From assembly GCA_017549105.1 (NCBI GenBank), contig JAFYVN010000011.1, forward strand, positions 285,752-349,751: DNA of 64,000 nucleotides. Direction: 5' to 3'. Below the pieces are notes generated by a model. The model searched no databases and had not been told where the DNA came from. It saw only the letters and a list, made by a program, of their open reading frames with translations. Positions 4,669-36,757 of the stretch are shown here, in pieces (position 1 is the first letter of the stretch; each line of letters starts with the position of its first letter). The stretch comes from Clostridia bacterium. Its GTDB lineage: Bacteria; Bacillota; Clostridia; Oscillospirales; Acutalibacteraceae. The position numbers and the translations under genes are program-made.

Positions 4669-6108
4669 TTATCTTAATTCAAGAGACAGCAAGTCCGCAT
4701 AATCTTCTCCCGAATATTTTAAATAAATTGCTTTTTTGCCTGAAAATTGAAGCGGTGCGGAACATTCGGCAAAGTCTGTCGATTCATTGATGTTTAATGA
4801 GGTTATTATATCACCGTTCAAATCAAAATACAAATCAATTCTGCCTTTGCCTCCCCTGACGGTAAGCGTGATTTCTTTGCAATCGCATTCAAAGTATTTG
4901 AAGCCTGCAATGCACCCGTCACGCATATTATGAATATACTGGCAAGGTTCATTTTCTCTGTCGGTACCCGTCTGCATAATGCACGGATGTATTTGAGTTT
5001 TCTTTTTGTTTTTGAAGAATACGCTTTTCTCTGCTCCTTCTTTTGCAAAAAGGTTGCAGACGATTCCCGCTTCATATCTGCCGAGTCCCAACGGTTTACC
5101 GTTAAGACCGCAGGAGGTCATTTCTGCGGATTTGAACAATCCGTTTTCATATCCGAGTTTTTCGGCAACACCTTGTCTGCTGCACTCACGCCAATATGTA
5201 TGCCTGTGACCGAAAACATAATATTCACCGTTGATATACTCAACAGAACCGTGATTGTTACCCCAATAATTCATAGGATTTTTATTGCCGTTTATACCAA
5301 TGTCTCCGTTTGAATGAAGCGTACCCGCAAATTTAAAATCTCTGTCGGGATAATCGCTTACGGCATAGGCAAGCTCGTGCGAGAGAACCGAGGAATAAAT
5401 AAAATAATATTTGTCACCGAATTTTCTGATTGAGCTTGCTTCATAAAACTCATGACCCTCAAAGCCCGTTCCTTTGCTGTTATGGGTTCCGGGAATGAGC
5501 TGTTTTACTGTTTTTACCGTCAGCATATCGTTTTCAAGTTCAAGAACCTGATTGCCTTTTGCGCCTTTGACAGGGCTGATTAAATCAATACCAAGTCTCA
5601 GAAACCATACATCGGGGCTGAAACCCGAATAAAGATAAATTTTACCGTTATCGTTTATTACTCCGGGGTCAAACGGAAAAAAGTCACCTTTTTCAGTACC
5701 GTATAACTTACCGTTCGGATGTTTTACATAACCGTAAAATTCGTATTTCCCTGCGGGCTCATCACAAACCGCAACGCTGATTGACGGCAAAAAACTCAGC
5801 CCGTAAAAAAGATAATATCTTCCGTCATTACCTTTACAAACATCGGGCGCAAACATCCTCATTTTTCCGCTTTTGTTTTTCGGATCCTGATTTTTACGGT
5901 AAATAACGCCTTCGTATTTCCAATCCGACAAATCATCAACAGGCGCAGACCAGCACACATAGTCCTTCTCACAAAAATTCTTACCGCCGAATGAATCGTG
6001 AGAGCCGAAAATATAGAGTCTGTTTCCGAAAACGTGAGGTTCTCCGTCGGCAATATATTCAAATGATGGCAGGTAAGGATTTGATAATTGATTTTTTATT
6101 ATAACCAT
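4669..6108 (-). CDS. glycoside hydrolase family 43-like enzyme
   Basis: A 479-residue protein with no signal peptide, so probably cytoplasmic. It shows the five-bladed propeller pattern of GH43 (arabinofuranosidases and xylosidases): ADGEPHVFGNRLYIFGSHD with the catalytic base aspartate, FAPDVCKGNDGRYYLFYG with the second aspartate, and GHEFYEASSIRKFGDKYYF with the acid glutamate. Residues about 380-479 resemble a small beta-sandwich carbohydrate-binding domain. The start codon is poorly placed relative to GGAG, which is nearly adjacent to it, so the exact start is uncertain. It is the first gene of a two-gene unit with the MFS transporter. A dyad element (6130-6147) lies in its leader. Confidence 0.8.
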   Translation of the reverse strand: MVIIKNQLSNPYLPSFEYIADGEPHVFGNRLYIFGSHDSFGGKNFCEKDYVCWSAPVDDLSDWKYEGVIYRKNQDPKNKSGKMRMFAPDVCKGNDGRYYLFYGLSFLPSISVAVCDEPAGKYEFYGYVKHPNGKLYGTEKGDFFPFDPGVINDNGKIYLYSGFSPDVWFLRLGIDLISPVKGAKGNQVLELENDMLTVKTVKQLIPGTHNSKGTGFEGHEFYEASSIRKFGDKYYFIYSSVLSHELAYAVSDYPDRDFKFAGTLHSNGDIGINGNKNPMNYWGNNHGSVEYINGEYYVFGHRHTYWRECSRQGVAEKLGYENGLFKSAEMTSCGLNGKPLGLGRYEAGIVCNLFAKEGAEKSVFFKNKKKTQIHPCIMQTGTDRENEPCQYIHNMRDGCIAGFKYFECDCKEITLTVRGGKGRIDLYFDLNGDIITSLNINESTDFAECSAPLQFSGKKAIYLKYSGEDYADLLSLELR

Positions 6109-6129
6109 CTCCGAAATATTATCTTGTTC

Positions 6130-6147
6130 GATAAATTCTTATTTGTC
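6130..6147. promoter_or_regulatory. dyad element, site 1 (upstream of the GH43-like gene)
   Basis: GATAAAT-TCTT-ATTTGTC is a 7-4-7 inverted repeat with one mismatch. The same element with a different loop lies in the promoter of the oxidoreductase (8253-8270), with weaker matches at 7217-7234 and 8603-8619. It is best read as a candidate operator shared by this minus-strand cluster. Confidence 0.5.
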
Positions 6148-6157
6148 GCTCTAAAAA

Positions 6158-6664
6158 CTAAACGAATTCTCGTCCTTTTCTAATGTAACAACCTTCTTGA
6201 ATTGCAGAAAAGGTTGCGACAGAGCATACAACTATGGCAGTGTATTTCAATTCCACGAAGGATATTGTCAAAGGCAACAGGAACAGCAGTAGTCCCGTTA
6301 TTTTGTTCATAATCGTATGTAGGGATATAAACTGTTTTTTAGAAACATATCCCCATATGATATTGCTGATTTTGATAACCGCAATCGTACCGAACCATAT
6401 CCACAACCACCCCGGAATAGGGATTGCCGGCAACAGCTTAAACAAAGATACCACTACAAAAATGAGGTCGGCAATCGTGTCCAGTTGGCTTCCGAATTTG
6501 CTGGTACTGTTTGTTTTTCTGGCGATTGTTCCATCTATCATATCACTAAAACCGCAGAAGAGATATATGATATAAAATGCCCCGGAAAACGCAGGAAAGA
6601 ACAGTAGCAAAATACTGCCGAAAATACGACAACCCGTAAGTATATTTGCAATATACTTCGCCAT
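6158..6664 (-). CDS. CDP-alcohol phosphatidyltransferase family protein
   Basis: A 168-residue integral membrane enzyme that joins a CDP-activated lipid to an alcohol, as in phosphatidylglycerol-phosphate or phosphatidylserine synthesis. The family signature D-x2-DG-x2-AR-x8-G-x3-D-x3-D is complete and correctly spaced, running from SDMIDGTIAR to GSQLDTIAD at residues about 45-70. Five to six hydrophobic segments are visible. The start at 6664 is set by GGAGGTGAACAG; a longer frame overlapping the previous gene has no site. It lies 22 bases after the GNAT gene and is probably cotranscribed with it. The alcohol substrate cannot be told from the sequence. Confidence 0.85.
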   Translation of the reverse strand: MAKYIANILTGCRIFGSILLLFFPAFSGAFYIIYLFCGFSDMIDGTIARKTNSTSKFGSQLDTIADLIFVVVSLFKLLPAIPIPGWLWIWFGTIAVIKISNIIWGYVSKKQFISLHTIMNKITGLLLFLLPLTISFVELKYTAIVVCSVATFSAIQEGCYIRKGREFV

Positions 6665-14915: not shown

Positions 14916-17900
14916 ATGAAGAAAAATTCTTTAGTGGTTTTTGCTTTTATATTTGTCTTGATGGCTGTGCTTTGTACGGCTTTTTTAAGCAAAAGCAGTC
15001 CGAAAGCCGAAGCGGTAATCATTAACACAACAGGCGAAGTGTATGTGCCTCTGACAACGTGTCCGAGTAATTATGTAAAGCCGTTTACTGATAAACTTGA
15101 TCTGGCAGAATATACAGCGGTTCCCGACGGCGGATTTGTTGAAACTGTAACAAACGAAGACGTAAGCCTTATTTATGACAGTTCAACAAAAATACTGAAA
15201 ATTGAGGGCAAGGGCATCGTTCCGAATGGACACGAATTTAAAAACGTTGAAAAAATCATAATCGGTAACGGTATAACGGAAATCAGTGAGGCTGCATTTT
15301 TTGGCTGCACATCTCTCAAAGAAGTTGTTATGCCCGAAAGTCTGAAAATCATCGGAGAATCAGCATTCAGAAACTGCATTGCTCTTTATGAAATTTCATT
15401 CCCCGACAGCCTGGAAACCATAGGGGGAAGCGCGTTCAACGGCTGTCTGAACCTCAAGAAAATCAGCCTCGGAAGCGGAATCAGAAACATCGGCGGACAA
15501 GCTTTTTACGACACAAACTATTATCTGAATGAGGATAATTGGAAAGACGGCGAGCTTTATCTTGACGGCTGTCTGCTGGACGCAAAAGTTATCAACGACG
15601 GTGATTACACAATCAAAGACGGCACAAAAGTAATCGGAGGATATTTGTTTTCGGGAGCCTGGAATATCAAATCTTTCAGCATTCCCGACAGCGTTGTCGG
15701 TATCAGTGACGGTGCATTTGTAAACTGTAAAATCAATCCGAACGACATCCCCGAAAGCGTTGACTCCATTGGCGCTCTGTCGTTTGCGACCACCCCCGAC
15801 CTTCACAAGCTGAATTCGGAAGTTGAAATTTCCGAAAACATTAAGTCAATCAGTGCGGGTGCGTTCTATAACCGTGATGTAACCGCTTTTTCGGTTGATA
15901 AAAATAATCCTTATTTTTTGAGCGATGAAAACGGTGTGCTTTTCACAAAGGACATGAAAAAGCTGATTGCATTCCCCGACGGAAGTACGCTTACTTCTTA
16001 TACAGTACCCTTCGGAGTCACCGAGATTGAAGATTTTGCTTTTGCGTTCTGTAATCTGAAGAATATTTCAATGCCCGCAACCGTTGGAAAAATCGGATAC
16101 GGAGCTTTTTCGAGGTGCAGTCAGCTGTCGGAGTTGATAATTCCCGACGCAGTCATAGAATTGGATTATTACACTTTCTATTACAGCAAAATCGAACGGA
16201 TTGATAGCGGAGACGGGATTACTTCATTTTTCGGTGATTACGGATCGGAAACCAAATATATAAAGATAGGTAAATCGGTACAGTATACAGGATCAGGCTT
16301 TTCGGGGGTTATAGAATATGAAGTTGACCCCGAAAATCCATATTACTGCAATGATGAATACGGTGTTCTTTATAACAAAGAAAAAACGTTGCTGGTTTCC
16401 TTCCCGTCCTGCAATCCCGTTGAGCATTATGTTATGCCGTCAACCGTTGAAGATGTCGGGAGATGCACCGATCCGTTCTCGAATCTGAAAACTCTGACTT
16501 TTTCCGAAAACATTAAGCCGGACAGCGACTACCTTTTTTGGGAGCAGATTTTAGGGTATCCGAGAAATACGTTTTCAGACATCATAGCAGAAAAATACAT
16601 AATGCCCGAAAGCAATGAATATTTCTGCACCGACGAAAACGGCGTTATATTCAACAAGGATAAAACACTTCTCGTCGGTTACCCACGAATGAACAAAAGT
16701 GCAAGTTATTCCGTTCCTGAAGGCGTTGAAATAATAGCCGGGGATGCTTTTAAAAATTGCGATAATCTTACGGAAATTCACATCCCCGAAAGTGTAAAAA
16801 CAATCGGTGAGTATGCTTTTCGGGAATGCGAAAATATTACCTCGGTAACAGGCTGTGAAGGTCTGGAGAGAATAGACACAGGGGCATTTGAAGACTGTCA
16901 TAATCTTCGTGAAATAACTATTCCCGACAAACCGATGAGGTTGGGTTGGAATGTTATTTCAACATCAACAACGGTCTTTTTCCTGGATGAAACTTTCCAG
17001 ATGGAATATGTTAACGGCTTCTATCTCGGCAATCATCTTTTACGGAGTGAAGATTCCTTTGGAACGGGTGATATCAGTATCAGAGAAGGAACTCTGGATA
17101 TAGGTACAGAGGCAATATGTGAAACGGCAAGAAATTTGTATATACCCAAATCGGTTAAAATCATCAATACAAATGCTTTTTATCGGGTAATAGGGCTTCA
17201 GAATATCTATTACGCAGGCACTCCCGAGGAATGGAAAGAAATTGATATTTTCTATTATAAATATGATGAATACTTCCAAGAAAATGATATTCTTGATGAT
17301 GTAGTTATCCATTATAATTCAACCGGAATACCTGTTCTTGAAACCAGACCCGAAACCGTAACGGATAAGGACACGGGAGTTTCAATCGATTTTGATGCAG
17401 CGAGATATAACGGTGAGGTTGAGTTTTGGGTTAGTCCGAATATCGATGACGGCTCTGCTTTTGACCTTATCACAACCGAAACCGATGTTGAAGATTTCTT
17501 CCTCTATGATATAACAATGAATTTAAACGGAAGGAACGTTCAGCCGGCAGAACCTGTTACCGTGCGACTTCCGGTTCCCGAGGGCTTCAATCCCTCCCGT
17601 TCAGTTATTTTCCATATAGATACGGTAACATGCAGGGTTGAGCGTATGGATGCACGTGTTGAAGACGGATATCTTGTGTTTGAAACCGACCATTTCAGTT
17701 ACTACGCAATCGTTGAAGAAAAGGCGGACTGCACAATTGAGTTCAACCACGCGGACAAAACAATCAATTATAAGCAAAGCGATTCGGTCAGCGCAACCGC
17801 TTCGGAAGGAAAGGTTGTTTACAGTTCATCCGACCCCGATATCGTTACTGTTGATAAAAACGGAAATATCACCGCCAAAAAAATCGGAACGGCGGTTATT

Positions 17901-18011
17901 ACTGCAACGGTTGAAGGCACGGATATTTCCGCAACCTGCAATGTAACCGTCAATTATGCCTGGTGGCAATGGATTATCAGAATTCTTCTTCTCGGATTTA
18001 TCTGGTATTAA
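14916..18011 (+). CDS. secreted BspA-type leucine-rich-repeat surface protein with Ig-like domain
   Basis: A 1031-residue exported protein, probably displayed on the cell surface and used in adhesion or binding. Residues 1-33 are a signal peptide. Residues about 85-770 hold many degenerate LRR_5/BspA repeats with the pattern I-x-x-x-A-F-x-x-C-x-x-L-x-x-I-x-I-P. Between them are recurrent inserts of the type NPYYCNDEYGVLYNKEKTLL. A beta-rich domain follows (about 800-930), then a BIG2-like Ig domain (about 940-1010). It ends WWQWIIRILLLGFIWY, a short aromatic hydrophobic tail rather than an LPxTG signal. It is monocistronic, with a promoter upstream and a strong terminator downstream. Confidence 0.88.
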   Translation: MKKNSLVVFAFIFVLMAVLCTAFLSKSSPKAEAVIINTTGEVYVPLTTCPSNYVKPFTDKLDLAEYTAVPDGGFVETVTNEDVSLIYDSSTKILKIEGKGIVPNGHEFKNVEKIIIGNGITEISEAAFFGCTSLKEVVMPESLKIIGESAFRNCIALYEISFPDSLETIGGSAFNGCLNLKKISLGSGIRNIGGQAFYDTNYYLNEDNWKDGELYLDGCLLDAKVINDGDYTIKDGTKVIGGYLFSGAWNIKSFSIPDSVVGISDGAFVNCKINPNDIPESVDSIGALSFATTPDLHKLNSEVEISENIKSISAGAFYNRDVTAFSVDKNNPYFLSDENGVLFTKDMKKLIAFPDGSTLTSYTVPFGVTEIEDFAFAFCNLKNISMPATVGKIGYGAFSRCSQLSELIIPDAVIELDYYTFYYSKIERIDSGDGITSFFGDYGSETKYIKIGKSVQYTGSGFSGVIEYEVDPENPYYCNDEYGVLYNKEKTLLVSFPSCNPVEHYVMPSTVEDVGRCTDPFSNLKTLTFSENIKPDSDYLFWEQILGYPRNTFSDIIAEKYIMPESNEYFCTDENGVIFNKDKTLLVGYPRMNKSASYSVPEGVEIIAGDAFKNCDNLTEIHIPESVKTIGEYAFRECENITSVTGCEGLERIDTGAFEDCHNLREITIPDKPMRLGWNVISTSTTVFFLDETFQMEYVNGFYLGNHLLRSEDSFGTGDISIREGTLDIGTEAICETARNLYIPKSVKIINTNAFYRVIGLQNIYYAGTPEEWKEIDIFYYKYDEYFQENDILDDVVIHYNSTGIPVLETRPETVTDKDTGVSIDFDAARYNGEVEFWVSPNIDDGSAFDLITTETDVEDFFLYDITMNLNGRNVQPAEPVTVRLPVPEGFNPSRSVIFHIDTVTCRVERMDARVEDGYLVFETDHFSYYAIVEEKADCTIEFNHADKTINYKQSDSVSATASEGKVVYSSSDPDIVTVDKNGNITAKKIGTAVITATVEGTDISATCNVTVNYAWWQWIIRILLLGFIWY

Positions 18012-25517: not shown

Positions 25518-26762
25518 ATGTCAGTTTGTGAGATTCTTTCCGTGGGTACGGAAATATTGCTCGGCGATATTCTCAACACAAATTCAAAATATCTTTCAAC
25601 CGAGCTTGCGAAACTCGGAATATCTGTGCTCCGCCACACAACCGTAGGCGATAATCACGACAGACTCGCCGCCGCTCTTCAGACTGCGCTCAGCAGAAGC
25701 GATATTGTTATTGCAACGGGCGGTCTCGGCCCTACGGCAGATGATATAACAAGAGATGTCTGCTGCGAGGTTATGGGGTTTGAGCTTGAGCTTGACGAAA
25801 AAATCGCAGACGGAATCAGAAAATATTTTGCTTCAAAGGGCTACGATATGCCGGAGAGCAATCTCCGTCAGGCGTATGTACCCGTCGGAGGAACTGTTTT
25901 TGAAAACAACCACGGCACTGCTCCGGGTCTGGGTCTTAAGAAGGACGGCAAATGCGTTGTCATTCTTCCCGGTCCGCCCTATGAGATGGCGCCTATGTAT
26001 AAAGAGAGCGTTGTTCCCTATCTTGCGGAGTATTCCGACGGTGCGATTGTGTCGCATACGGTGAGGACTATGGGAATCGGCGAAAGTGCAATGGCAGAGA
26101 TGTGTGCGGATTTGCTTGAAAAAGAAAATCCTACTGTTGCACCTTACGCAAAGAAGGGTGAGGCACTTCTGCGTGTCACCGCCAAGGCGGAGAATGAAGA
26201 CGAAGCCGAAAAACTTCTTCTGCCCGTGATTGACGAGATAAAGTCAAGGCTCGGCGGATACGTTTACGGTATCGACAGTGAAAATATTGAGCAGAGAGTG
26301 GTTGAGCTTCTCAAAGAAAACGGACTTAAAATCGCAACTGCTGAAAGCTGTACCGCAGGTTATATCCCCAAAAGAATAACCGATATCGCAGGTGCAAGCG
26401 AGGTTTTTGAGTTCGGAGCAATCACTTATTCAAATGAAATGAAAAACAAGGTTCTCGGAGTAAAGACCGAAACCCTTGAAAAACACGGTGCGGTCAGCGA
26501 ACAGACCGCAAGAGAAATGGCAGAGGGCATACGCCGTGTTACGGGCGCGGATATCGGAATTTCCGTAACGGGTATCGCAGGTCCGGGCAGTGACGGAACT
26601 GATAAACCCGTCGGTCTGTGCTTTATCGCTCTTGATGCCGAAGATAAAAAGATGTGCGAAAAAATAGAAACGGGCAAAAACGACAGAGAGTACAACCGCT
26701 ATGTGAACGCATCCCGTGCGCTCAATCTTGCCCGAATTTATATAGAGGAGAAAATAAGATGA
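25518..26762 (+). CDS. cinA: CinA family protein, nicotinamide-nucleotide amidase
   Basis: A 414-residue two-domain protein. The N-terminal MoCF-like domain (SVGTEILLGDILNTNSKYL at the start and ATGGLGPTADDITRD at about 72) is linked to ADP-ribose/NMN-type hydrolysis. The C-terminal domain (TAESCTAGYIPKRITDIAGAS at about 280; GIAGPGSDGTDKPVGLC) is a nicotinamide-mononucleotide deamidase that recycles NAD breakdown products. AAAGGAG precedes the ATG at 25518. The stop overlaps the sortase start (ATGA), so the genes are coupled, an uncommon partnership. Confidence 0.9.
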   Translation: MSVCEILSVGTEILLGDILNTNSKYLSTELAKLGISVLRHTTVGDNHDRLAAALQTALSRSDIVIATGGLGPTADDITRDVCCEVMGFELELDEKIADGIRKYFASKGYDMPESNLRQAYVPVGGTVFENNHGTAPGLGLKKDGKCVVILPGPPYEMAPMYKESVVPYLAEYSDGAIVSHTVRTMGIGESAMAEMCADLLEKENPTVAPYAKKGEALLRVTAKAENEDEAEKLLLPVIDEIKSRLGGYVYGIDSENIEQRVVELLKENGLKIATAESCTAGYIPKRITDIAGASEVFEFGAITYSNEMKNKVLGVKTETLEKHGAVSEQTAREMAEGIRRVTGADIGISVTGIAGPGSDGTDKPVGLCFIALDAEDKKMCEKIETGKNDREYNRYVNASRALNLARIYIEEKIR

Positions 26763-27745
26763 ATTCAAAAAAGTTGGCGGCAATCCTTTGCCCGATTTTT
26801 GCGGTGGTTTCCGCAATTCTGATTGCTCTTTCGGTTATGAATTTCACGAAGAAACCAGATGTTGAGGTTCAGCTCAACGAAAAGGCGGCTGAAATTGTTA
26901 TGAATGCCGAAGCGGTAACCGATGCGCTTGCAAAAACGCTTTCAACCGTTGTTTCAAACGATGTGAAGGCTCAGCAGACCTTCCCCGAAGGCATCCGTGA
27001 GGAGTTTAAGCAGGCATATGCCGTCAACAACAACCTTGTCGGCTGGCTTTCAATCCCCGGTACGGAGATGGACACAGCAGTCCTCCAGGGCGACGACAAT
27101 AACTATTACCTCAAGCGTGATTTTTACGAACGCTATACTTCCGAAACAATTGCCACCAACTACGGCAACATATATCTTGATTACCGTTGCAGTAACACCG
27201 AAATTTCCAAAAACACCGTTATCCACGGTCATACAACGGGAAAATCAGACGGTATTCCCAAGCAGTCGTTCCGTTCTCTCTATGATTTCAGAGATAAGAA
27301 CCACTTCATAAAGAACCCGATAATCAGATACAGCACTCTTTATAAAGACTATACATTTAAAATATGTGCTGTTTTCCTCTCGTCAACCCAGACGAAGGAT
27401 GACAACGGATATTTCTTCAACTATATTTATCCCGATATGAGCGAGGGCAATATGGTCGGCTATATCGAGCAGGTCAAGCAGAGAATGCTCTATGAAACAG
27501 GCGTTTCGCTCGAACCTACAGATAAGGTCATCACCCTTTCGACCTGCATTTACGACTACGGCAAGAATGTTGATACCCGCCTTGTTGTTGTCGGCAGACT
27601 GCTTCACGAGGGTGAAAGCGAGAGCATTGACCCGTCGCTTGTAAAAGATAACCCCGATTACCGCAGACCCCAGGTCTGGTATAACCGCAACGGAAAGCAG
27701 AACCCCTATAAGAATGCAGAAAAATGGCAACCCAGCGCTAACTGA
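26759..27745 (+). CDS. class B sortase
   Basis: A 328-residue membrane-anchored transpeptidase of the sortase B family, which cuts a sorting motif and links proteins to the wall or to pilins. A single N-terminal membrane segment (about residues 5-25) is followed by the sortase domain from about 95: GWLSIPGTEMDTAVLQGDDN, VIHGHTTG with His158, TLSTC with Cys263, and Arg274 in DTRLVVVGR. All three catalytic residues are present. The ATG at 26759 overlaps cinA's stop; GAGGAG lies before it. It is followed by a second, unusual sortase homologue. No sorting-signal substrate was recognised in the window. Confidence 0.9.
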   Translation: MNSKKLAAILCPIFAVVSAILIALSVMNFTKKPDVEVQLNEKAAEIVMNAEAVTDALAKTLSTVVSNDVKAQQTFPEGIREEFKQAYAVNNNLVGWLSIPGTEMDTAVLQGDDNNYYLKRDFYERYTSETIATNYGNIYLDYRCSNTEISKNTVIHGHTTGKSDGIPKQSFRSLYDFRDKNHFIKNPIIRYSTLYKDYTFKICAVFLSSTQTKDDNGYFFNYIYPDMSEGNMVGYIEQVKQRMLYETGVSLEPTDKVITLSTCIYDYGKNVDTRLVVVGRLLHEGESESIDPSLVKDNPDYRRPQVWYNRNGKQNPYKNAEKWQPSAN

Positions 27746-27766
27746 TAAAAACGGAGGACAAAAAAG

Positions 27767-29791
27767 ATGTCTAATAATGATAATCAGAAAAAGCCGTCGT
27801 CCCTTCCCGAGGGACTCAGCTCCATCGCAGACGATGAAGCGATAACGGAAATAAACCTTACCGATTTTCTTGAGGAAAGCTCAAAGGCGTCACCGCTTTT
27901 TGAAGGATTTCACGAGGATATCGAAAGAACCGAAAAGAGCCTTGAAAGCGAGCTTCAGAGCCTTTACGATGACATTATGAGCAGCGGACCCGAAACCATC
28001 GTGCCCAAGCCCATGTCGGTGCTTACCGCAAATGAAGCAGAGCCTTCAAAAATCGCTCTTTCAGACCCCGAAATCTTTGAAGAACCCGAATCAACCGCTC
28101 TCGATTCTCTCTGGATGAATCCCGAAGATTATTTTGAGGATGATATTCCCGTTGTGTCGCTTGACGGGGCAGAGAATGCTGTGATGGACGGAGAAATCCC
28201 CGACAATGCGTTTTTTGAGCCTTCGGCAGTGGACGAGCTTGCTTCTCTGAAAAGCGAGGACGGTGCAAAAAGCGATATTTTCAATATGATTGATTTGCTC
28301 AAATCGGAGAGTGACAGCGAAACCGGATTCAGCGATATTCTTTCCGAAATTGAATCAAATTCGGGCATTTCTCCCGTTGCAAGCGAGCTTTCATCGGCTT
28401 CACAGCTTGTTTCGGATGTTCCGGTTTATGAAGAACCTGCAATAGAAACTGTTGAGGATGAATACGAAGAGGTTGCTTTCGGAGAAGAAGAAATCTCGTG
28501 GGATGAGCTTGAATATTCTTCTGAGGAGCCTGCTGCTCAGTCACCTGCCGTTGCTCCCGTACCCGATGCGGTTCCCGCAGATTTTGTGATTGATGTACCC
28601 GCAGCGGTTCAGACTGAACCCGAAAGCGATTTTGACAAAGAGCTTGCCGTTCTTCTCGGAGACAAGAAGCCTGAGGAGGAGCAGACCGGATTTGTTATCA
28701 ACGTACCCGATGACGGTGTTGATTACGAAAGAGCGGCTCTTGCATCGGAAAAGCTTTATGAGGCAGCGCCGATGAGCAGTCAGTCTCTTGAGGATGACCC
28801 CGATTTTGCGGGTTATGCAGAAGATGAAAACGCTGCAGGCAAGAAGGGTGAATCCAAGGGCGGCGCAGGCGATATTATCAGAAAGATTGTTCTCACTCTT
28901 TCGATTATAACAATCATTGTCAGCTGCGGAATTCTTGTGAATACTTATTTTATCGAACCCTACCGCTTCAAATCGGATGCAGATGCTCTTGTTGAGCAGA
29001 TGAGCGCAAACATCGATAATCACGATCATTCCGAAACGGTTAACGAGCAGATAAAAACAGATAATCCCGATACCGAATTCCCCGAAGGTATGCTTGCGAA
29101 GTATGCTCAGCTTTATGCGCAGAACAACGATTTTGCGGGCTGGATTACCATTGAAGGCTTCGGAATCAATCTTCCCATCGCTCAGGGCGATGACAACAGC
29201 TATTATCTCAAGAGAGATATATATAAAAAGTATACAAGCTACGGTGTTCCGTTCTTTGATTACAGAATCAGCGACCTCAAAAACCTTCACAGAAACACCA
29301 TGGTTTACGGTCACAATATGCGCCACGACGACTATATTTTCGGTATGCTCGAAAATTACAGAACCGTTGAAGGCTATGCTCAGGCACCTGTTATCGAGTG
29401 CAACACCATTTATGGCGACCACACCTGGTTTGTTTACGGTGTATTCATCACAAACTCAAACGAAAAGGATGATAACGGATACTTCCTTCCCTATAACTTT
29501 GTTGATGTTTCAACCCAGAAGTTTGTGGAATATATCAAGGAAGTTGATAAGAGAAAGCTCTACACAACAGGCGTGGATATCAACGAAACCGACAGAATTC
29601 TTACTCTCCAGGCTTGTGTTTACGATTTCGACGGCGCAATGATTGTTGTTGTTGCCAGAGAGAAGAGACCCGGCGAAAGCATCAGCGTTGACACTTCAAA
29701 GGCATACAAGAATCCCAATCCCAAGTATCCTCAGAAGTGGTATGATGTCAACAAAAAAGAAAATCCTTATGCAGGCGACCCCAGATGGTAA
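27767..29791 (+). CDS. class B sortase homologue with a long acidic cytoplasmic arm and no catalytic arginine
   Basis: A 674-residue protein. Residues 1-365 are strongly acidic, low in aromatic residues and apparently disordered, with many D/E-rich and P/V-rich segments. Residues about 370-395 form a membrane segment; the sortase domain (about 445-640) follows outside. The domain matches the upstream sortase (GWITIEGFGINLPIAQGDDN; His516 in YGHNM; Cys617 in TLQACVYDF). The position of the conserved arginine holds methionine (Met625 in GAMIVVVAR), and the loop before it is shorter by about three residues. It may be an altered sortase, a regulatory partner or a non-catalytic subunit. GGAGGAC precedes the ATG, 21 bases after the first sortase. 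Confidence 0.85.
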   Translation: MSNNDNQKKPSSLPEGLSSIADDEAITEINLTDFLEESSKASPLFEGFHEDIERTEKSLESELQSLYDDIMSSGPETIVPKPMSVLTANEAEPSKIALSDPEIFEEPESTALDSLWMNPEDYFEDDIPVVSLDGAENAVMDGEIPDNAFFEPSAVDELASLKSEDGAKSDIFNMIDLLKSESDSETGFSDILSEIESNSGISPVASELSSASQLVSDVPVYEEPAIETVEDEYEEVAFGEEEISWDELEYSSEEPAAQSPAVAPVPDAVPADFVIDVPAAVQTEPESDFDKELAVLLGDKKPEEEQTGFVINVPDDGVDYERAALASEKLYEAAPMSSQSLEDDPDFAGYAEDENAAGKKGESKGGAGDIIRKIVLTLSIITIIVSCGILVNTYFIEPYRFKSDADALVEQMSANIDNHDHSETVNEQIKTDNPDTEFPEGMLAKYAQLYAQNNDFAGWITIEGFGINLPIAQGDDNSYYLKRDIYKKYTSYGVPFFDYRISDLKNLHRNTMVYGHNMRHDDYIFGMLENYRTVEGYAQAPVIECNTIYGDHTWFVYGVFITNSNEKDDNGYFLPYNFVDVSTQKFVEYIKEVDKRKLYTTGVDINETDRILTLQACVYDFDGAMIVVVAREKRPGESISVDTSKAYKNPNPKYPQKWYDVNKKENPYAGDPRW

Positions 29792-29792
29792 A

Positions 29793-29867
29793 ATGAATTT
29801 TAATGAATTGCCTTACGGCATAAAACGGTTTTTGGAAATCAGATTAAGGAACGGTGATATTATATGA
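29793..29867 (+). CDS. possible 24-residue coupling peptide between the sortase and SpoIID-type genes
   Basis: Directly after the sortase stop (one base apart) an ATG opens a 24-codon frame that ends in TGA overlapping the ATG of the next gene (ATGA). The peptide begins MNFNELPYGIKRFLEIRLRN and is basic and amphipathic. There is no good Shine-Dalgarno site, so translation would depend on reinitiation. It may be a translational bridge rather than a functional peptide. Confidence 0.35.
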   Translation: MNFNELPYGIKRFLEIRLRNGDII

Positions 29868-32284
29868 ACAGAAAGATGAGTATCTGCACTCTTTGCGCTT
29901 CATCGGCGCAGAATGCGGCAGATTATCTTAAACAGAGGGCATCCGCATACAGTCCCGACGTTGCGGTGAAGGATTTTGATAACGCCTCGGCTTTTGCCGC
30001 AGGTGTGGATTCCTGCGCCCTTGAAGGCGGAGTCATCCTTGCCGCTGCTCCTCTTTCCGAGTTCCTTAAAGCAAAGATTCGTTTAATAAAAACCGTATCC
30101 GATAAAATCGTAAGAAGCAATTCAATTGCCGCCTTACTGAACGAAAAAGTACCTGCTTATGATGCGAAGGAAGCAGAGTTTAACAAGCTTCATGCCGCAA
30201 TTCCCGAAAAGGCAAAAACCCTCAAATCGGCAGACGGACGTTATTCGGCATTTGTCAAAGAACATAAAAAGTCGCTCATCGTTTTTCTTCCCCTTGATGA
30301 GCCGTTGCTCAACTATATGTTCTCGGCGGGTCTTGCAAAAATGCTTGACGGAATTTTCCCCAAGGCACAGCCTCAGGCTGCCGTACCTTCGGAAAAACCG
30401 AGAATTTCGGTGCTTCGTGAGCAGGTTGAAACGGTTATGGCGAGCGGAAAATCCGTTGCTGTATCTCCTTGCGGATGCGCAAAACCGCTTATTTCGGCAA
30501 TTTCAACCGTTCCCGGTTGCGAAATGACTTTTGTTCAGGATAATGCACTCAGAGACAGACTCCCCGACGAAAGTATAGAAAATTACGTTGCACAGTGTGC
30601 AAAAATATCAAAAGAAAACGCCGGTACCGACCTCGGCATCAGCGTTTCATCGATTTATAAAGACAGATCGGACGACAGCGATTTTGTTATCGTCTGCGTT
30701 GCGGATTCGGACAGAGCGAAGGCTGCAAAAGTATATGCGAATCCCGGTGAGGATAAAAAGCATCTTGTTGCGGCAGCGGTTATCCGTCTTTGCGAAATGC
30801 TTGGTGAACTTTCAGGCCCCGAAGGTCTTGTAAACCCTGATGTTCCCGTTGTAAAGCCCAAAAAGTGGGCAAAGAATCCCAAGCTTCCCATAATTATAAC
30901 TGTAGCGGGAATTGCGCTTGCGGTTATCATCGGTCTTGTGCTTGCCTTTGTTCTCGGCGGAGAAAAAGAAGGTGAACAGCCTGTTTCGGGCAACGGAATT
31001 TACGATTTTGCCCAGCAGGATTATTATGCCGATGTTGATTACCATGGCGGAAGCAACATCGATTATCTCGAAATGCAGGCGATTGCCGTTCAGAATGAAC
31101 AGACTACATATAATTTCGGCATTCTTTCAACATCCGAAACAATTCAGCAGACAAGCGTAACCGAAACTCTGACTCAAATCGTGACAACAATCAAAAATGT
31201 TGTTACAACCAATAAACCGACCACCACCAAAAAGCTTACCACAACAGCGAAGGCAACTACCACCGTTAAGCCGACAACGACTAAAGCAACAACAACTCTC
31301 AAGCCTACCACAACCAAAGCGACCACCACACTCAAACCCACAACAACCACAACCAAGGCAACAACAACCCTTAAACCCACAACAACTCTTGTGTCATCAA
31401 CTTCAACAACCGTTGTTTCGGGCGGAAAGGTTGAGTCAACCACCGCAGGTTCTTCAAAGGGCGTTTTCGTGTTCAAGACCTACGGCTGGGGTCACGGTGT
31501 AGGAATGAGCCAGTACGGTGCAATTCAGATGGCGAAAGACGGAAAGGATTATGAAGAAATTCTGACCCACTATTTCGAAGGAACAACGGTCAAAACCGAT
31601 TCAGCAACACCGCTTACCGTCAAATATGGCGGCAAGGATATCCCCATTGTTGAGTATCTTTGCAGAACAACCTACCGTGAAATCGGTGACGGTGCTCCTC
31701 TTGAGGCGCTCAAGGCTCAGGCTGTAACGGCTTATACATTTGCAAAATTCTATGATTTTGACGTTGAATCTTCAAAGCACGCCTATTCCACAAGCTATGA
31801 ATACGCAGGAACCAATATTCACAAGGCAGTTCTTGCGGTGCTTGGAATGAGCAGCGATATCGGTGTTCCCAAGGCAAAGTATGTTGATTATAACGGCAGC
31901 GCAGCGTTTACCTGCTATTTTGCAACCGCAGCAGGCAAAACCGCATCCTCTGCAAGCGTATGGGGCGGCAATGGCTATCCTTATCTTGATGGCGGTGCTG
32001 TAAGCCCCGAAACGGTTAAGGTGTCCGAAGAAACAATCACCGCAGATGAAATGAAGAAACTCATTCTTTCGTATGCCAAGGATAACGATATAGAAATCAC
32101 TCTCAGTGAAAATCCTGCTGAGTGGCTCGAAATTGTTTCGCACGATTCATCAATGAACGCAAACACAGGTTATGTAACAACAATGAGAGTCGGCAACAAA
32201 GAGGTCAGAGGTAACACATTCCGTTGCTATGTGCTCGATTTCAAAATCGATTCGCACTGCTTTACATTTGAATATATTCCCTGA
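29864..32284 (+). CDS. membrane-anchored SpoIID/LytB-domain protein with a permuted domain order
   Basis: An 806-residue protein. Residues 1-335 are an unrecognised, probably cytoplasmic region; about 340-366 is a membrane segment. About 445-513 is a threonine-rich linker made of TTTKATTTLKPTTT-type repeats, and about 530-806 is a SpoIID/LytB domain. SpoIID proteins are lytic transglycosylases acting on peptidoglycan. Normally ALKAQAVAARTYA comes first and GxGHGVGMSQYGA last. Here YGWGHGVGMSQYGA (about 537-550) precedes EYLCRTTYREIGDGAPLEAL and KAQAVTAYTF, so the last strand has moved to the front. The glutamate in TYREIG is the likely catalytic residue. It is the last gene of the cinA-sortase operon, before a terminator. 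Confidence 0.83.
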   Translation: MNRKMSICTLCASSAQNAADYLKQRASAYSPDVAVKDFDNASAFAAGVDSCALEGGVILAAAPLSEFLKAKIRLIKTVSDKIVRSNSIAALLNEKVPAYDAKEAEFNKLHAAIPEKAKTLKSADGRYSAFVKEHKKSLIVFLPLDEPLLNYMFSAGLAKMLDGIFPKAQPQAAVPSEKPRISVLREQVETVMASGKSVAVSPCGCAKPLISAISTVPGCEMTFVQDNALRDRLPDESIENYVAQCAKISKENAGTDLGISVSSIYKDRSDDSDFVIVCVADSDRAKAAKVYANPGEDKKHLVAAAVIRLCEMLGELSGPEGLVNPDVPVVKPKKWAKNPKLPIIITVAGIALAVIIGLVLAFVLGGEKEGEQPVSGNGIYDFAQQDYYADVDYHGGSNIDYLEMQAIAVQNEQTTYNFGILSTSETIQQTSVTETLTQIVTTIKNVVTTNKPTTTKKLTTTAKATTTVKPTTTKATTTLKPTTTKATTTLKPTTTTTKATTTLKPTTTLVSSTSTTVVSGGKVESTTAGSSKGVFVFKTYGWGHGVGMSQYGAIQMAKDGKDYEEILTHYFEGTTVKTDSATPLTVKYGGKDIPIVEYLCRTTYREIGDGAPLEALKAQAVTAYTFAKFYDFDVESSKHAYSTSYEYAGTNIHKAVLAVLGMSSDIGVPKAKYVDYNGSAAFTCYFATAAGKTASSASVWGGNGYPYLDGGAVSPETVKVSEETITADEMKKLILSYAKDNDIEITLSENPAEWLEIVSHDSSMNANTGYVTTMRVGNKEVRGNTFRCYVLDFKIDSHCFTFEYIP

Positions 32285-32692: not shown

Positions 32693-32723
32693 AAAATGAT
32701 TTATTATGGGGAGGAATAACCTT

Positions 32724-33386
32724 ATGATCAAAATTTCTCCGTCGGTGCTTGCAAGCGACTTTTCCGCTCTTGGTGCAGAAAGCATAAGAATGGAAAAAAG
32801 CGGAGCCGACTATCTTCATCTTGATGTTATGGATGGCAGATTTGTGCCGAATATCACCTTCGGTGCGCCCGTTATCAAAAGCATAAGAAACAAAACAGAC
32901 CTTATCTTTGATGTTCACCTTATGATTGATGAACCTCTTAAGTATATTGAAGATTTCAAAAAAGCGGGTGCAGATATCATTGTTTTCCATGCTGAAAGCT
33001 CATCGCCTGTTGCTGAAACGGTTGATAAGATTCTTGAATGCGGCTGTAAAGCAGGCATAAGCATCAAACCGAATACGGCGGCAGAGGTTGTTTTCCCTTA
33101 TCTCGATAAGCTTTCGATGGTGCTTGTGATGACGGTTGAACCCGGTTTCGGCGGTCAGTCATTTATGCCCGAAACTATGGAAAAAATAAAGACTCTGCGC
33201 TCCGAAATGAAACGCAGAGGACTTGATATCGATATTCAGGTTGACGGTGGAATCAACGAAAAAACCGTTGAAATTGCCGCTTCGGCAGGCGCAAATGTTT
33301 TTGTTGCAGGCAGTGCTGTTTTCGGTGCGGAGGATGCAGCTGCAGAAATTGCAAAGCTCCGCAGTCTTGCTGAAAAAGCATTTTAG
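32724..33386 (+). CDS. rpe: ribulose-phosphate 3-epimerase
   Basis: Interconverts ribulose 5-phosphate and xylulose 5-phosphate in the pentose phosphate pathway. A 220-residue TIM barrel with KISPSVLASDFSALG at the start, the metal-site HLDVMDGRFVPNITFG, FDVHLMI, VMTVEPGFGGQSFM and IQVDGGI near the C-terminus, all family hallmarks. GGGGAGG lies before the ATG at 32724. Its stop overlaps the convergent mecA stop by four bases. Confidence 0.93.
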   Translation: MIKISPSVLASDFSALGAESIRMEKSGADYLHLDVMDGRFVPNITFGAPVIKSIRNKTDLIFDVHLMIDEPLKYIEDFKKAGADIIVFHAESSSPVAETVDKILECGCKAGISIKPNTAAEVVFPYLDKLSMVLVMTVEPGFGGQSFMPETMEKIKTLRSEMKRRGLDIDIQVDGGINEKTVEIAASAGANVFVAGSAVFGAEDAAAEIAKLRSLAEKAF

Positions 33387-33958
33387 TTTTTCATTTGTTT
33401 GTTAAGCAGACTTTCAATTGCATTATCGGATACAATCATGCGCCAATGCTCATTTGTGAAATCCAAGAGCAGTTTGTTGCAGTTTCTGATTTTGCAGAAT
33501 TCCGAAAGCATACTTTTAACGGTGTCTGACGAACATCCCAGAATCAGACGGTATGCTCCGTCAAGCTCAAAAAGACTGCTTTGCACGGCAAAACCGGTTC
33601 GCTGAGTTTCTTCGGCGGCTCTGAAAAGGTCGTCAAGATTTTCGAAGTCACAGATTATGCCGTCATCCGTTTTTCGCAGCATATGTTTTTGCGCCGCAGT
33701 TCTTTTTCTGCCGTCAAGAATAGTGAAGGTCAGCGTACATCCGCCTTCGCATTTCGGCGATGCTTCAATAATCATTCTGCGTGACGGGTCAAGCTCACGC
33801 CCGAGATGTTTGCCGGCTTCTCCGAGTACGGTCCAGATAACACGGCGTGTTTCAATTGTGGAATAATCCATTGCTTCATATGTAATATCAAGTTCAAGCA
33901 TATCCTGCTTTGTAAGGTCAACTATTATTTTATCCTCGGCGGGTGAATTGATTTTCAT
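33383..33958 (-). CDS. mecA: MecA-like adaptor protein
   Basis: MecA proteins deliver substrates to the ClpC ATPase for degradation by ClpCP and were first found as negative regulators of competence. This 191-residue protein has the N-terminal part (KIIVDLTKQDMLELDITYEAM, ETRRVIWTVLGEAG) and a C-terminal ferredoxin-like half with the LLLDFTNEHWRMI segment. It is shorter than Bacillus MecA (about 218). A cysteine pair in KCEGGCTLTF is notable. AAGGAGG precedes the ATG. The promoter lies at 34004-34032. Assignment rests on the overall pattern. Confidence 0.68.
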   Translation of the reverse strand: MKINSPAEDKIIVDLTKQDMLELDITYEAMDYSTIETRRVIWTVLGEAGKHLGRELDPSRRMIIEASPKCEGGCTLTFTILDGRKRTAAQKHMLRKTDDGIICDFENLDDLFRAAEETQRTGFAVQSSLFELDGAYRLILGCSSDTVKSMLSEFCKIRNCNKLLLDFTNEHWRMIVSDNAIESLLNKQMKN

Positions 33959-34032: not shown

Positions 34033-34067
34033 CGCTTAAATATTGGAATTCAAAGAGGTGGTTACCC

Positions 34068-35021
34068 TTGGCAAATACAGCCTCAAAACAGAATATACTC
34101 AAAGCATCTCAGATTTTCGGTGACTACATCGTTATGATTCTTGCTCCGTGCATAGTTTCCGTTATGTATTACGGTTCAAGGGCGATGGCGGTTATCGCAG
34201 TAAGTATTCTGAGCGCTGTTGTCTGCGATTTTGCAGCAAGCTTTATTATACGAAAAAGATTTTTGCTCAGGGATACGAGCAATATTTTCATAGGTGCGGC
34301 TATAGCGATGATGATGCCTGCAAGCGTACCCCTTTATGTGCCGGCAATTGCTTCTGCGGCGGGTGTGCTGACGGCAAAAATACCGTTCGGCGGTTCTCTC
34401 AGAGCTCCTTTTGTGCCTGCGGCAGCGGGATTTGCGATTGCAAGCGTCTGTTTCAAAGAGCAGGTGTTCACATATGCACAGAATACCGAAGATAAACTTT
34501 TCGGTGCAAATTCGCTTGCGTCTCTTCTCGCGCAGGGCAGCTCGGTTCACATAAACAAAGGAAATGTGTTTGAAATTATTTCGGGTAATATTTCGGGTCC
34601 TATGGGTACGGGTTGCGGAATACTTATGGTTGCGTGCTGCTGTTACCTTTTTGTGCGCAGAAGAAGTGCGCTTCTTGCAACCGGCGGATTTATAGCTGCG
34701 TGCGTGATTTTTGCAGTTCTTTTTCCGAGAGTCAATTCAAATGCGCTTACAAGCGTTGTTCTTGAACTTTCCGCAGGTTCATTGCTTTTCGGTGCTGTTT
34801 TTCTTATCACCGATGTATCAACCCTCCCCAAAGGCAGCGTGGTTAAGGTTGCTTACGGTGCGGTATGCGGTGTAATCTGTATGATAATGAGAAGCGTCGG
34901 CACTTATGAAGAAACAGTTTGTTTTGCAGCGCTTATGGCAAACGGCTTTTCACCGGTTATTGAATCGTCGGTAAAAGTTCTGTCCTCCCGAAAAATGAAG
35001 AAGGGAGCGGCTGAAAAATGA
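34068..35021 (+). CDS. RnfD-like membrane protein lacking the FMN-binding threonine
   Basis: A 317-residue polytopic protein related to RnfD/NqrB of the ferredoxin:NAD+ or Na+-pumping NADH:quinone oxidoreductases. Landmarks align: the first membrane hairpin, RDTSNIFIGAAIAMMMPASVP, AKIPFGGSLRAPFVPAAAG, and the SGNISGPMGTGCGILM segment corresponding to the G-x-x-PGSIGE region. The S/D-GAT-x-x-A motif that carries covalent FMN on threonine reads FGANSLASLL, so the threonine is Asn148. It starts with TTG after AGAGGTGG. Its last codons overlap the next gene by four bases. It is the first of a D-E-A set without rnfB, C or G. Confidence 0.8.
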   Translation: MANTASKQNILKASQIFGDYIVMILAPCIVSVMYYGSRAMAVIAVSILSAVVCDFAASFIIRKRFLLRDTSNIFIGAAIAMMMPASVPLYVPAIASAAGVLTAKIPFGGSLRAPFVPAAAGFAIASVCFKEQVFTYAQNTEDKLFGANSLASLLAQGSSVHINKGNVFEIISGNISGPMGTGCGILMVACCCYLFVRRRSALLATGGFIAACVIFAVLFPRVNSNALTSVVLELSAGSLLFGAVFLITDVSTLPKGSVVKVAYGAVCGVICMIMRSVGTYEETVCFAALMANGFSPVIESSVKVLSSRKMKKGAAEK

Positions 35022-35872
35022 GTAATAATATTTCTTTTAAAGACGTATTTATCAAAGGAGCGGTAATTTATAATCCCGTGCTCATTCAGCTTGTCGGTCT
35101 TTGCCCCGTTGTTGCGGCGTCAACTACTTTTGCAAGAGCGGCAATGCTTTCAGTGGTGCTTTGCGTTGAACTTATTGTCACCTGCACCGTGGCAAGCGCC
35201 CTTTTCAAAAAAATCCCGAGATGGGTCAGAGTTTTGCTCTATCTTATTATCGGAACGGCAATTATATGCCCTCTTTTATGGTATATCGAATCGTTTTCTC
35301 TCATAAACCTGAGCCTCGGTATGAAAATATATATACCTCTTATTGCAGTTAATTCCATGACTGCGGTTCACTGTGAGCAGTTTTCCGTTAAAAACAGCGT
35401 AAAGCTTTCGCTTTATGATGCGGCAGCTGCCGGATTCGGTGCATCCATTATTATTCTGATTGTCGGTGCAGTCAGAGAATTGCTTGCAAATTCAGCAATC
35501 GGCGGAATGCCGGTCAATCTTCCGATAACATTCAAAGGAATGGCATTGCCCTTCGGCTGTCTTATTCTTCTCGGATTTATGGCGGCAGGTCTCAAAGCGT
35601 TTGTTGCGAGGATGTATCCTCAGAATTCTGCGGATGAAGAACCCGTGGTAAGTGAGGTTTTTGCAGATGAAAACAGCGAAGTGACCGAGGTTGAGATTTT
35701 CGATGAGTTCTGGGCAGAGCCTCAGCCGGAAGAAGTTCCGGAGGTTCCGATGAGTGTTCCTGAAAAAACGTCGGTTAAACCCGCAGAACCTTCATTCAGC
35801 ACGGCAGAAGAAATTGACGAGCTTTTAAAATCGCTCGGTATTGATATCGACATAAAGGGGGATAAGCAATGA
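35018..35872 (+). CDS. RnfE-like membrane protein with one cluster cysteine lost and an acidic tail
   Basis: A 284-residue protein related to RnfE/NqrD. NPVLIQLVGLCPVVAAS near the N-terminus keeps the first buried cluster cysteine (Cys29). The second, normally in a VNC motif, is Ser113 in PLIAVNSMTAV. GAVRELLANSAIGG matches the GAIRELLG motif. Residues about 205-284 are an extra acidic, proline- and glutamate-rich cytoplasmic tail ending in a short helix (TAEEIDELLKSLGIDI), not present in usual RnfE (about 200-230 residues). Four-base overlaps with both neighbours indicate a tightly coupled complex. Confidence 0.8.
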   Translation: MSNNISFKDVFIKGAVIYNPVLIQLVGLCPVVAASTTFARAAMLSVVLCVELIVTCTVASALFKKIPRWVRVLLYLIIGTAIICPLLWYIESFSLINLSLGMKIYIPLIAVNSMTAVHCEQFSVKNSVKLSLYDAAAAGFGASIIILIVGAVRELLANSAIGGMPVNLPITFKGMALPFGCLILLGFMAAGLKAFVARMYPQNSADEEPVVSEVFADENSEVTEVEIFDEFWAEPQPEEVPEVPMSVPEKTSVKPAEPSFSTAEEIDELLKSLGIDIDIKGDKQ

Positions 35873-36462
35873 GAATATTAACAGACCTGCTTATGACCGC
35901 CCTTTATACGGTTTTTGCGCAGAACCTTGTGCTCAGTTCGGGTCTTGGTATGAGCGAAGCCATCAGAGTTTCAACAAAACCCGGTACCTTCGGAAAATTT
36001 GCGCTGATGATTTCGGGATTTTCGGTTGTAACAAGTACCCTTTGCAGTCTTATCGACTCGTTCAAGCCGATGGAAGCAATGCCCTACGCAGTCAGAGCGG
36101 CAATTTATGCAGGTGTTCTCGCAGGCGTTTATATAATCGTTGCCGCTGTTATGAGACTCTTTTTCGGTTCATCGGCAAAAATACTCGGAACGCTTGGTAT
36201 TGCGGCGCTCAATACCCTTGTTTTTACGATTCCCCATATCAACAATTCTGCGGCATATTCGTTTGCAGGCAGTATCGGTTCGGGTATCGGTGCGGGTATT
36301 GCGTTTGTGCTTGCGGCAGCGCTTATAAACAGCGGATCACGCAAGCTTGCGGAGAATGAGGATATTCCCGAGATTTTCAAAGGCACTCCCGCAATGTTCT
36401 TTTATGTTGCAATGCTTTCACTTGCGTTTGCGGGATTTACGGATTCAAATATTTTCGGTTGA
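35869..36462 (+). CDS. RnfA-like membrane protein lacking both cluster cysteines
   Basis: A 197-residue, six-segment protein related to RnfA/NqrE. FAQNLVLSSGLGMSEAIRVS corresponds to the NNFVLSRFLGICPFLGVS segment, with the cysteine region reading GMS (Ser29). The second ligand motif TTNC reads ALNT (Thr116). The C-terminal PEIFKGTPAMFFYVAMLSLAF matches PKAFQGTPI...AGLLSLAF. Fold landmarks are kept while redox ligands are gone. Four-base overlap with the RnfE-like gene. It ends 11 bases before a small membrane protein gene. Confidence 0.8.
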   Translation: MRILTDLLMTALYTVFAQNLVLSSGLGMSEAIRVSTKPGTFGKFALMISGFSVVTSTLCSLIDSFKPMEAMPYAVRAAIYAGVLAGVYIIVAAVMRLFFGSSAKILGTLGIAALNTLVFTIPHINNSAAYSFAGSIGSGIGAGIAFVLAAALINSGSRKLAENEDIPEIFKGTPAMFFYVAMLSLAFAGFTDSNIFG

Positions 36463-36472
36463 GGAAAAAATT

Positions 36473-36757
36473 ATGCCCAAAACAGGAAAAATAGAAAAAA
36501 CGCTCAAGCCCTCAGAGCGTAAAAGCATAACGGAGTTTTCAACCCGTTTCGGTTCGGGTCCGACCTATGAAGAGAGGGTGAGGAGCAAGAAAATTGCTAT
36601 GATCATTCTGATAACCGCAGGGATTCTTGCGCTTATCGGTACCGGCTATTTCTTTGCCGATGTTTTTATAAAAATTACGGAAATGCCTTACGAACATCAG
36701 ACGGCATCGATGAATATTATTTTTAAGGAAATTGCAGATGGAATTCATACCCTATAA
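36473..36757 (+). CDS. small single-pass membrane protein following the RnfDEA-like genes
   Basis: A 94-residue protein. The first 40 residues are basic and hydrophilic. Residues about 43-63 form one membrane segment (IAMIILITAGILALIGTGYF), and about 30 residues follow. No family is recognised. GAGGA overlaps the previous stop and precedes the ATG. Its end overlaps the GH13 gene by 20 bases. Tight spacing suggests it belongs to the same operon and may be an accessory subunit of the RnfDEA-like complex. Confidence 0.7.
   Translation: MPKTGKIEKTLKPSERKSITEFSTRFGSGPTYEERVRSKKIAMIILITAGILALIGTGYFFADVFIKITEMPYEHQTASMNIIFKEIADGIHTL

Follow-up and report, generated by a model that had tools for sequence, protein, structure and literature searches.

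What becomes of the membrane core of the sodium pump Rnf when most of the residues that carry electrons through it are missing? This question is raised by three coupled genes in a 64,000-nucleotide stretch of a Clostridia bacterium genome (order Oscillospirales, family Acutalibacteraceae; contig JAFYVN010000011.1, positions 285,752 to 349,751), hereafter called the window. The genes resemble rnfD, rnfE and rnfA, and we refer to them as the D-like, E-like and A-like genes or, together, as the trio. Because their electron-carrying sites are gone while many relatives keep the trio beside a normal pump, the altered trio probably now does another membrane job, possibly the movement of ions free of electrons. 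The genes and the ribosome-binding site ahead of them are arranged as follows.

34053..34061, forward strand: good ribosome-binding site AAGAGGTGG (AGAGGTGG), read from the sequence, six bases ahead of the TTG of the D-like gene
34068..35021, forward strand: D-like gene, RnfD/NqrB-like membrane protein of 317 amino acids, TTG start
35018..35872, forward strand: E-like gene, RnfE/NqrD-like membrane protein of 284 amino acids with an acidic C-terminal tail
35869..36462, forward strand: A-like gene, RnfA/NqrE-like membrane protein of 197 amino acids

The three genes (34,068 to 36,462) run in the same direction, are intact and are joined by two four-base overlaps. The D-like protein matches PF03116 (E=1.4e-51, 176.1 bits, gathering cut-off 27.7) as its sole Pfam domain, with no fused nicotinamide adenine dinucleotide (NAD)-binding domain. 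The E-like and A-like proteins both match PF02508 above its gathering cut-off of 23.8 bits (E=4.5e-26, 92.4 bits and E=1.3e-20, 74.6 bits, respectively). The best NCBIfam matches are the rnf/rsx models (TIGR01946, TIGR01948, TIGR01943), all scoring under their curated cut-offs (120.7 against 207.05 bits for rnfD, 78.4 against 213.4 for rnfE and 54.8 against 229.3 for rnfA), and the nqr models score lower still for each of the three proteins. The closest solved structures are RnfD, RnfE and RnfA of entry 7zc6 (phmmer E=2.3e-25 for the D-like protein against 7zc6_D); the solved Rnf entries 7zc6 and 9eri are those of C. tetanomorphum and A. woodii. Compared with the ordinary Rnf subunits encoded in the same genome, the D-like protein is 26%, the E-like protein 27% and the A-like protein 29% identical. 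The preliminary description of this locus had called the trio coupled relatives of RnfD, RnfE and RnfA, and these matches and overlaps agree with it: by homology, the trio is related to the membrane core of the electron-driven sodium pump Rnf. Scans of the window for promoters (7 against 5.4 expected) and terminators (7 against 5.1 expected) came out near chance.

The cofactor ligands were mapped by alignment with the genome's own Rnf subunits and with those of eight more ordinary-type operons from the order. L080c, an unusual second rnf copy, was kept outside the canonical residue counts, with eight of nine retained. At the two cluster positions, the E-like protein keeps Cys29 and has Ser113, and the A-like protein has Ser29 and Thr116, with Glu30 and Arg33 close to Ser29. 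This leaves one of the four [2Fe-2S] cysteines (C/S/S/T). The same holds wherever we looked: every trio locus read has at most one of the four cysteines that bind the [2Fe-2S] cluster in Rnf and in the Na+-translocating NADH:quinone oxidoreductase (Na+-NQR). Because these loci have all lost the RnfA/E cluster alike, neither chance nor sequencing error accounts for its absence.

Within the genus the replacements are nearly fixed. Partial genes at contig ends (L059, L060, L069, L071 and L072, the last two from one genome) were counted wherever a site was readable. The A-like positions are invariant (Ser and Thr in 36/36 readable proteins each), the first E-like position is Cys in 33/35, and the second is Ser in 33/36 and Ala in 3/36. 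Across 21 loci outside the genus, the second E-like and the first A-like cysteine are never found and the second A-like cysteine is found in four.

The D-like protein is altered at the flavin site. The covalent flavin mononucleotide (FMN) of RnfD sits on the threonine of a DxxSGAT motif, which here reads D142-K-L-F-G-A-N148, with Asn148 (codon 34509-34511) at the FMN position. In the same alignment the 35 genus D proteins carry Asn, Lys, Gln, His, Val, Glu, Arg, Met or Ala there in 24 cases and Ser or Thr in 11. A relaxed scan for the motif matches none of 56 trio D proteins, yet it is a weak scan that finds only three of nine ordinary RnfD proteins. Of the two riboflavin residues of RnfD (N123 and D249 of A. 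woodii), the window keeps the aspartate and has Val for the asparagine. N123 is kept in 0/35 genus D proteins (Val or Met in 35/35), in 9/10 loci that have an RnfC-like gene, described below, and in 5/11 others. All residues named in the preliminary description (Asn148, Cys29 with Ser113, Ser29 with Thr116) were therefore read correctly, Asn148 with one alternative alignment to which we return. The alignment shows the cluster ligands to be lost and not shifted. The further statement that the trio is stripped of its redox sites is right for the four-cysteine set and the FMN threonine, but too strong for Cys29 and the riboflavin residue Asp249, which are kept.

The window's genome (a 1.24-Mb assembly, 64% complete) has an ordinary rnf operon elsewhere. 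Contig C10 carries rnfC, D, G, E, A and B in this order, with an ApbE gene slightly upstream, and the trio is therefore a second, altered set. The sole FMN_bind match in this assembly lies inside the ordinary operon. From rpe to a gene for a protein of 94 amino acids, the trio region holds only D, E, A and an opposite-strand mecA-like gene, and neither the window nor the genus loci showed an rnfB, rnfC or rnfG in linkage with it. The reported absence of these three genes thus stands for the trio cluster, in the window and in the genus, but not for the genome, whose ordinary operon has them.

Among the trio genomes searched, 21 of 22 have four Rnf-Nqr genes. The remaining one, G235 (99% complete, two contigs), has the trio and an RnfC-like gene, no Rnf-Nqr gene beyond the trio's two, and no match in an FMN_bind search. 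The trio can therefore exist without an ordinary Rnf, at least in the form that has the RnfC-like gene. Separately, genome G054 holds a second rnfCDGEAB-type operon (L080, C9:66500-78500) in which the second cluster cysteine of RnfE aligns with Gly and the first of RnfA seems shifted by one residue; RnfB and RnfG are present there.

With the A-like protein as query, a close copy was found in 33 of 37 genus genomes, the window's included, and not in G016, G018, G023 and G032, two of which are 64% and 75% complete. Eleven named loci have the D-like gene and the cluster (nine from ruminant gut, one from horse, one of unstated source); seven of these replace the same contigs in the numbered genomes, and the two sets overlap. 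Counts omit L052, which lies on the same contig as L042, and L104, an ordinary operon. The D, E and A frames are intact in all genus loci not cut by contig ends. The ratio of nonsynonymous to synonymous substitution rates (dN/dS) is 0.07-0.22 in nine comparisons with three relatives, at a dS of 0.9-1.6, which is near saturation. Among the loci read, the cluster of L083 in G058 looks damaged, its E-like gene (6081-6485) having an in-frame TGA stop.

The shared loss of ligands, the intact frames, the purifying selection and the lack of a linked rnfB, rnfC or rnfG together point to a trio under selection, that is, to a conserved altered complex rather than decay. The preliminary description had reached the same conclusion and had asked whether the losses are conserved in relatives; the loss of the cluster ligands is common to all trio loci read. 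The transporter and the scaffold that it named as candidate roles are both no more than possible readings, taken up below.

How far does the altered trio extend? An A-like profile was searched against 295 genomes of the order, and 21 genomes outside the genus, picked from the best hits, were read. In a broader profile search, 32 of the 295 genomes, from five families, reach at least 170 bits and three more reach 143-152 bits. Of the latter, G288 (143 bits) is an ordinary rnf operon; G294 and G309 (143-152 bits), together with ten more genomes at or above 170 bits, lie outside the loci read. Across the class, 9 of 342 genomes score at least 171 bits, all within the same order, and the best score elsewhere is 133.7 bits, although profile searches of this kind could overlook more distant members.

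In ten loci outside the genus, an RnfC-like gene precedes D. Its proteins keep both CxxCxxCxxxC [4Fe-4S] motifs of RnfC (eight cysteines invariant in nine aligned proteins, and likewise in L090) and are without the glycine-rich flavin/NADH loop found in the seven ordinary RnfC proteins compared. A profile of this protein reaches at least 350 bits in 4 of 292 genomes, all of the same order, the next score being 290.7. BLAST searches of the clusters outside the genus, with RnfB and RnfG of the window's genome as queries, were negative. For the genus, searches of 25 of the 37 genomes and of 15 others gave, among the matches listed, no RnfC-family match beside the trio. The trio had been described as a D-E-A-only cluster, and this is so in the window's genus, whereas other families add the RnfC-like gene with its two [4Fe-4S] motifs.

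Trees of A (61 rows, 31 of them trio) and E (60 rows, 30 of them trio), built from ten genus rows and rows of other families, separate every trio row, by a branch with support 100/99, from the ordinary Rnf proteins of this order and of others. One row entered as outside the order, L133, belongs to the same order and is identical to L079c. By these trees, the trio loci sampled from across the order belong together in one group. The age of the split is unsure, since a number of trio rows sit on long branches. The RnfC-like gene requires four state changes on each tree.

The residues of the ion path have fared differently from the redox sites. In A. woodii Rnf, the RnfE pair R67-E115 gates Na+ (PMC11889175; this and the other papers cited by number were available as excerpts, to which our use of them is limited). 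The window's E-like protein keeps this pair as Arg71 and Glu120, and its counterparts are invariant in the genus (R in 35/35 and E in 36/36 readable proteins). RnfA N112 is kept in 36/36 genus proteins and in 56/57 of all readable rows. Residues facing the RnfB cluster are mostly not kept: RnfA R154 is retained in 0/36 genus and 4/21 other proteins, and within the genus K32 in 3/36 and E158 in 16/36. The A-like proteins of the genus carry Glu (36/36) and Arg (35/36) next to the first of the former cluster positions; outside the genus these sites are variable (Arg in 9/21 and 10/21).

We read the trio, on this residue pattern, as the product of an old duplication of the Rnf operon, after which electron transfer would have been lost stepwise and part of the ion path kept. 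PMC11889175 (excerpt) proposes the RnfA/E pair as the route of Na+, with the cluster that lies between the two as its switch, and, contrary to earlier proposals, finds no Na+ path in RnfD. If this route is right, the E/A pair of the trio may still offer an ion path: E and A would form the same inverted pair, with D as partner, and Ser, Ser and Thr with the nearby Glu and Arg would stand where the redox switch was. The pair could then act as a Na+ or H+ channel or as an alternating-access transporter, driven by an ion gradient or another solute and not by electrons. That the E/A pair, partnered by D and freed from switching by electrons, is such a channel or gradient-driven transporter is our favored and still tentative proposal, to which we give slightly less than an even chance.

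The pattern of kept and lost residues suggests that the electron parts were lost in steps, with the loss in the window's genus among the most advanced. RnfB, RnfG, the RnfA/E cluster and the FMN of D may have gone first, followed by repeated loss of the RnfC-like electron half; the end state would be D-E-A, with the former redox switch replaced by Ser/Ser/Thr and Glu/Arg. Where a family has the RnfC-like gene, C together with the riboflavin site of D may continue to conduct electrons at the cytosolic face or act as a redox sensor, and in the window's genus this half, too, would be gone. The full scenario, in which a respiratory electron-driven Na+ pump became a redox-free membrane transporter and living relatives preserve the steps, is one we put forward cautiously, as possible but short of an even bet.

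Several observations weigh against this proposal, most of them at the flavin sites of D. An alternative MAFFT alignment puts Ser149 instead of Asn148 on the FMN threonine; Ser149 is conserved in 34/35 genus D proteins, and outside the genus the same alignment has Thr at the FMN site in 2/21. ApbE is able to use Ser. The residue preceding Ser149, Ala in the motif, is not conserved in the genus. We prefer Asn148 because the published ApbE flavinylation motif, D-x-x-[S/T]-G-A-[S/T] (PMC12052999, excerpt), lines up with D142-K-L-F-G-A-N148. The FMN site of one genus member, L045, has the sequence FGAT, and the riboflavin residue D249 is kept in 32/35 genus D proteins, as in 9/10 loci with the RnfC-like gene, so that D may still hold a flavin in the genus. 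Absence of ApbE from G235, considered as a sign that nothing is flavinylated there, failed as an argument: G235 has an ApbE flavin transferase.

Other such points concern the E and A proteins. Outside the genus, the counterpart of RnfE R67 is kept in 17/21 proteins and that of E115 in only 9/21. RnfA E88 is kept in 1/57 rows and T110 and T111 in none, and the ion path is thus kept only in part. A Lys or Arg stands directly after the K32 position in 36/36 genus proteins, against K32 itself in 3/36, and the RnfB-like contact is therefore not wholly lost. Finally, the charges that now occupy the cluster site might just as well stabilize a static scaffold.

The neighborhood of the trio bears on this last point. 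The genes flanking it are listed here.

32706..33386, forward strand: rpe, ribulose-phosphate 3-epimerase (PF00834, E=2.2e-74), no subunit claim
33383..33958, reverse strand: MecA-like adaptor gene (PF05389, E=1.3e-14), no subunit claim
36473..36757, forward strand: protein of 94 amino acids with one likely membrane helix, after the A-like gene and kept across genus loci

The most constant neighbor is rpe, which adjoins the trio in 20 of the 21 genomes read outside the genus. The mecA-like gene lies on the opposite strand between rpe and the trio in several families, at the same position in many relatives. The 94-amino-acid protein has no Pfam match. Genus copies of it, the window's own not among them, give weak matches (E 5e-5 to 9e-3) to a DUF4015 hidden Markov model (HMM), and in L070, a divergent member of the genus, a complete DUF4015 protein is encoded in its place. 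It may be a shrunken remnant, the anchor alone, of the membrane-anchored DUF4015 (PF13200) protein that relatives encode at this position. In 15 trio loci, L070 included, the gene after the A-like one is of DUF4015 type; the copy in L073 is cut by a contig end. The DUF4015 HMM has no match in seven loci of the window's family (L088, L090, L094, L095, L097, L100 and L103). A DUF4015 gene also lies directly downstream of the ordinary rnf operon in G038 (L076, 3996-4934).

LytR-CpsA-Psr, transglutaminase and GH13 neighbors were considered as partners and dropped, because none of them matched next to the trio in any locus read outside the genus. Further off in the window, two adjacent sortase-domain proteins (363 and 674 amino acids) and a SpoIID-domain protein with a Thr-rich linker (26654-32284) likewise have no match beside the trio in the relatives fetched, and a 1031-amino-acid BspA-type leucine-rich repeat protein with a bacterial Ig-like domain is encoded at 14916-18011.

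The alternative that survives best is a scaffold or assembly factor: the trio would be a membrane platform for another protein, for example the adjoining DUF4015 protein, and would move nothing. No cofactor is needed for this, and the DUF4015-type genes of 15 trio loci, the possible remnant in the window and the DUF4015 gene behind the ordinary operon of G038 all suit it. Yet the seven loci of the window's family are without a DUF4015 match, and the Arg/Glu gating pair kept in the genus would be needless for a plain platform. We consider this reading unlikely, although a real contender.

A second possibility is that the trio still handles electrons, with a flavin held in D and an RnfC-like or unlinked partner, as in the two-subunit NQR/RNF-like system. 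An NqrB/RnfD-like protein without the FMN threonine is thought to carry electrons there (PMC11334425, excerpt). The ten RnfC-like loci, with both [4Fe-4S] motifs and with N123 and D249 each kept in nine of ten, speak for it, as does the conserved Ser149 next to the old FMN site in the genus. In the genus, however, there is no RnfC-like gene among the matches listed, N123 is replaced by Val or Met in all 35 proteins and the E/A cluster is gone; no continuous electron path across the membrane would therefore be left. We regard a redox role as rather improbable.

The altered D, E and A could instead swap into the ordinary Rnf and yield an inactive or uncoupled hybrid that acts as a brake. Ordinary Rnf-Nqr genes are indeed found in the window's genome and in 21 of the 22 other trio genomes searched. 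However, G235 has the trio with neither an ordinary RnfA or RnfE nor an FMN_bind match, identity to the ordinary proteins is just 27% for the E-like and 29% for the A-like protein, and the RnfB-facing R154 of RnfA is lost in the genus, all of which makes such a modifier a distinctly improbable explanation. Decay of an Rnf copy on its way to loss could account for the stop in the G058 E-like gene, the roughly four state changes of the RnfC-like gene and the four genus genomes (of 37) in which the A-like gene was not found, two of them 64% and 75% complete, but it is already contradicted for the window's genus by intact frames, low dN/dS (0.07-0.22) and invariant replacement residues in one old group, and we hold it very improbable overall.

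The trio can be set beside the known systems. With Rnf (RnfABCDGE) it has in common the relative order of D, E and A, whose proteins are homologous, the conserved Asn in the cluster loops and, in the window's genus, the Na+-gating Arg/Glu pair of RnfE. It differs in a cluster without B, C and G, in having one of the four [2Fe-2S] cysteines and in the Asn at the FMN site of D. Where the RnfC-like gene is present, in ten loci of other genera, it shares both CxxCxxCxxxC motifs with RnfC and has lost the flavin/NADH loop.

NQR is a partial precedent, being thought to be an Rnf duplicate that lost RnfB and whose NqrA lost the RnfC cofactors (PMC4014512 and PMC12174285, excerpts). Like the trio, it is thus a duplicate with losses. 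Unlike the trio, it keeps the NqrD/E cluster and its covalent FMNs and has gained NqrF; neither NqrF nor NqrA is found in the trio cluster. The two-subunit NQR/RNF-like system (PMC11334425 and PMC8238504, excerpts) is another, in that its NqrB/RnfD-like membrane protein is also without the FMN threonine. As far as these excerpts go, it has only two apparent subunits, with a fused NAD-binding domain and a flavinylated partner, whereas the trio includes E and A and lacks both a NAD domain and a flavinylated partner linked to it. The preliminary description knew of no Rnf-derived complex without redox centers. This needs qualifying: partial losses have precedents (PMC11334425 and PMC4014512), while a D-E-A complex without the A/E cluster, with or without an RnfC-like protein, was not found in our searches, which covered the open-licence literature.

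The route of Na+ through Rnf and NQR is disputed between the RnfA/E pair and RnfD/NqrB (PMC11889175, excerpt). A natural D-E-A module that has the RnfE gating pair and no redox switch allows a test of that route free of electrons, and if the module moves Na+, the ion path and its redox coupling are separable. Should our proposal be true, the trio would offer a rare example of a redox-driven pump put to another use in many related bacteria, its intermediates, with and without the RnfC-like gene, being still extant.

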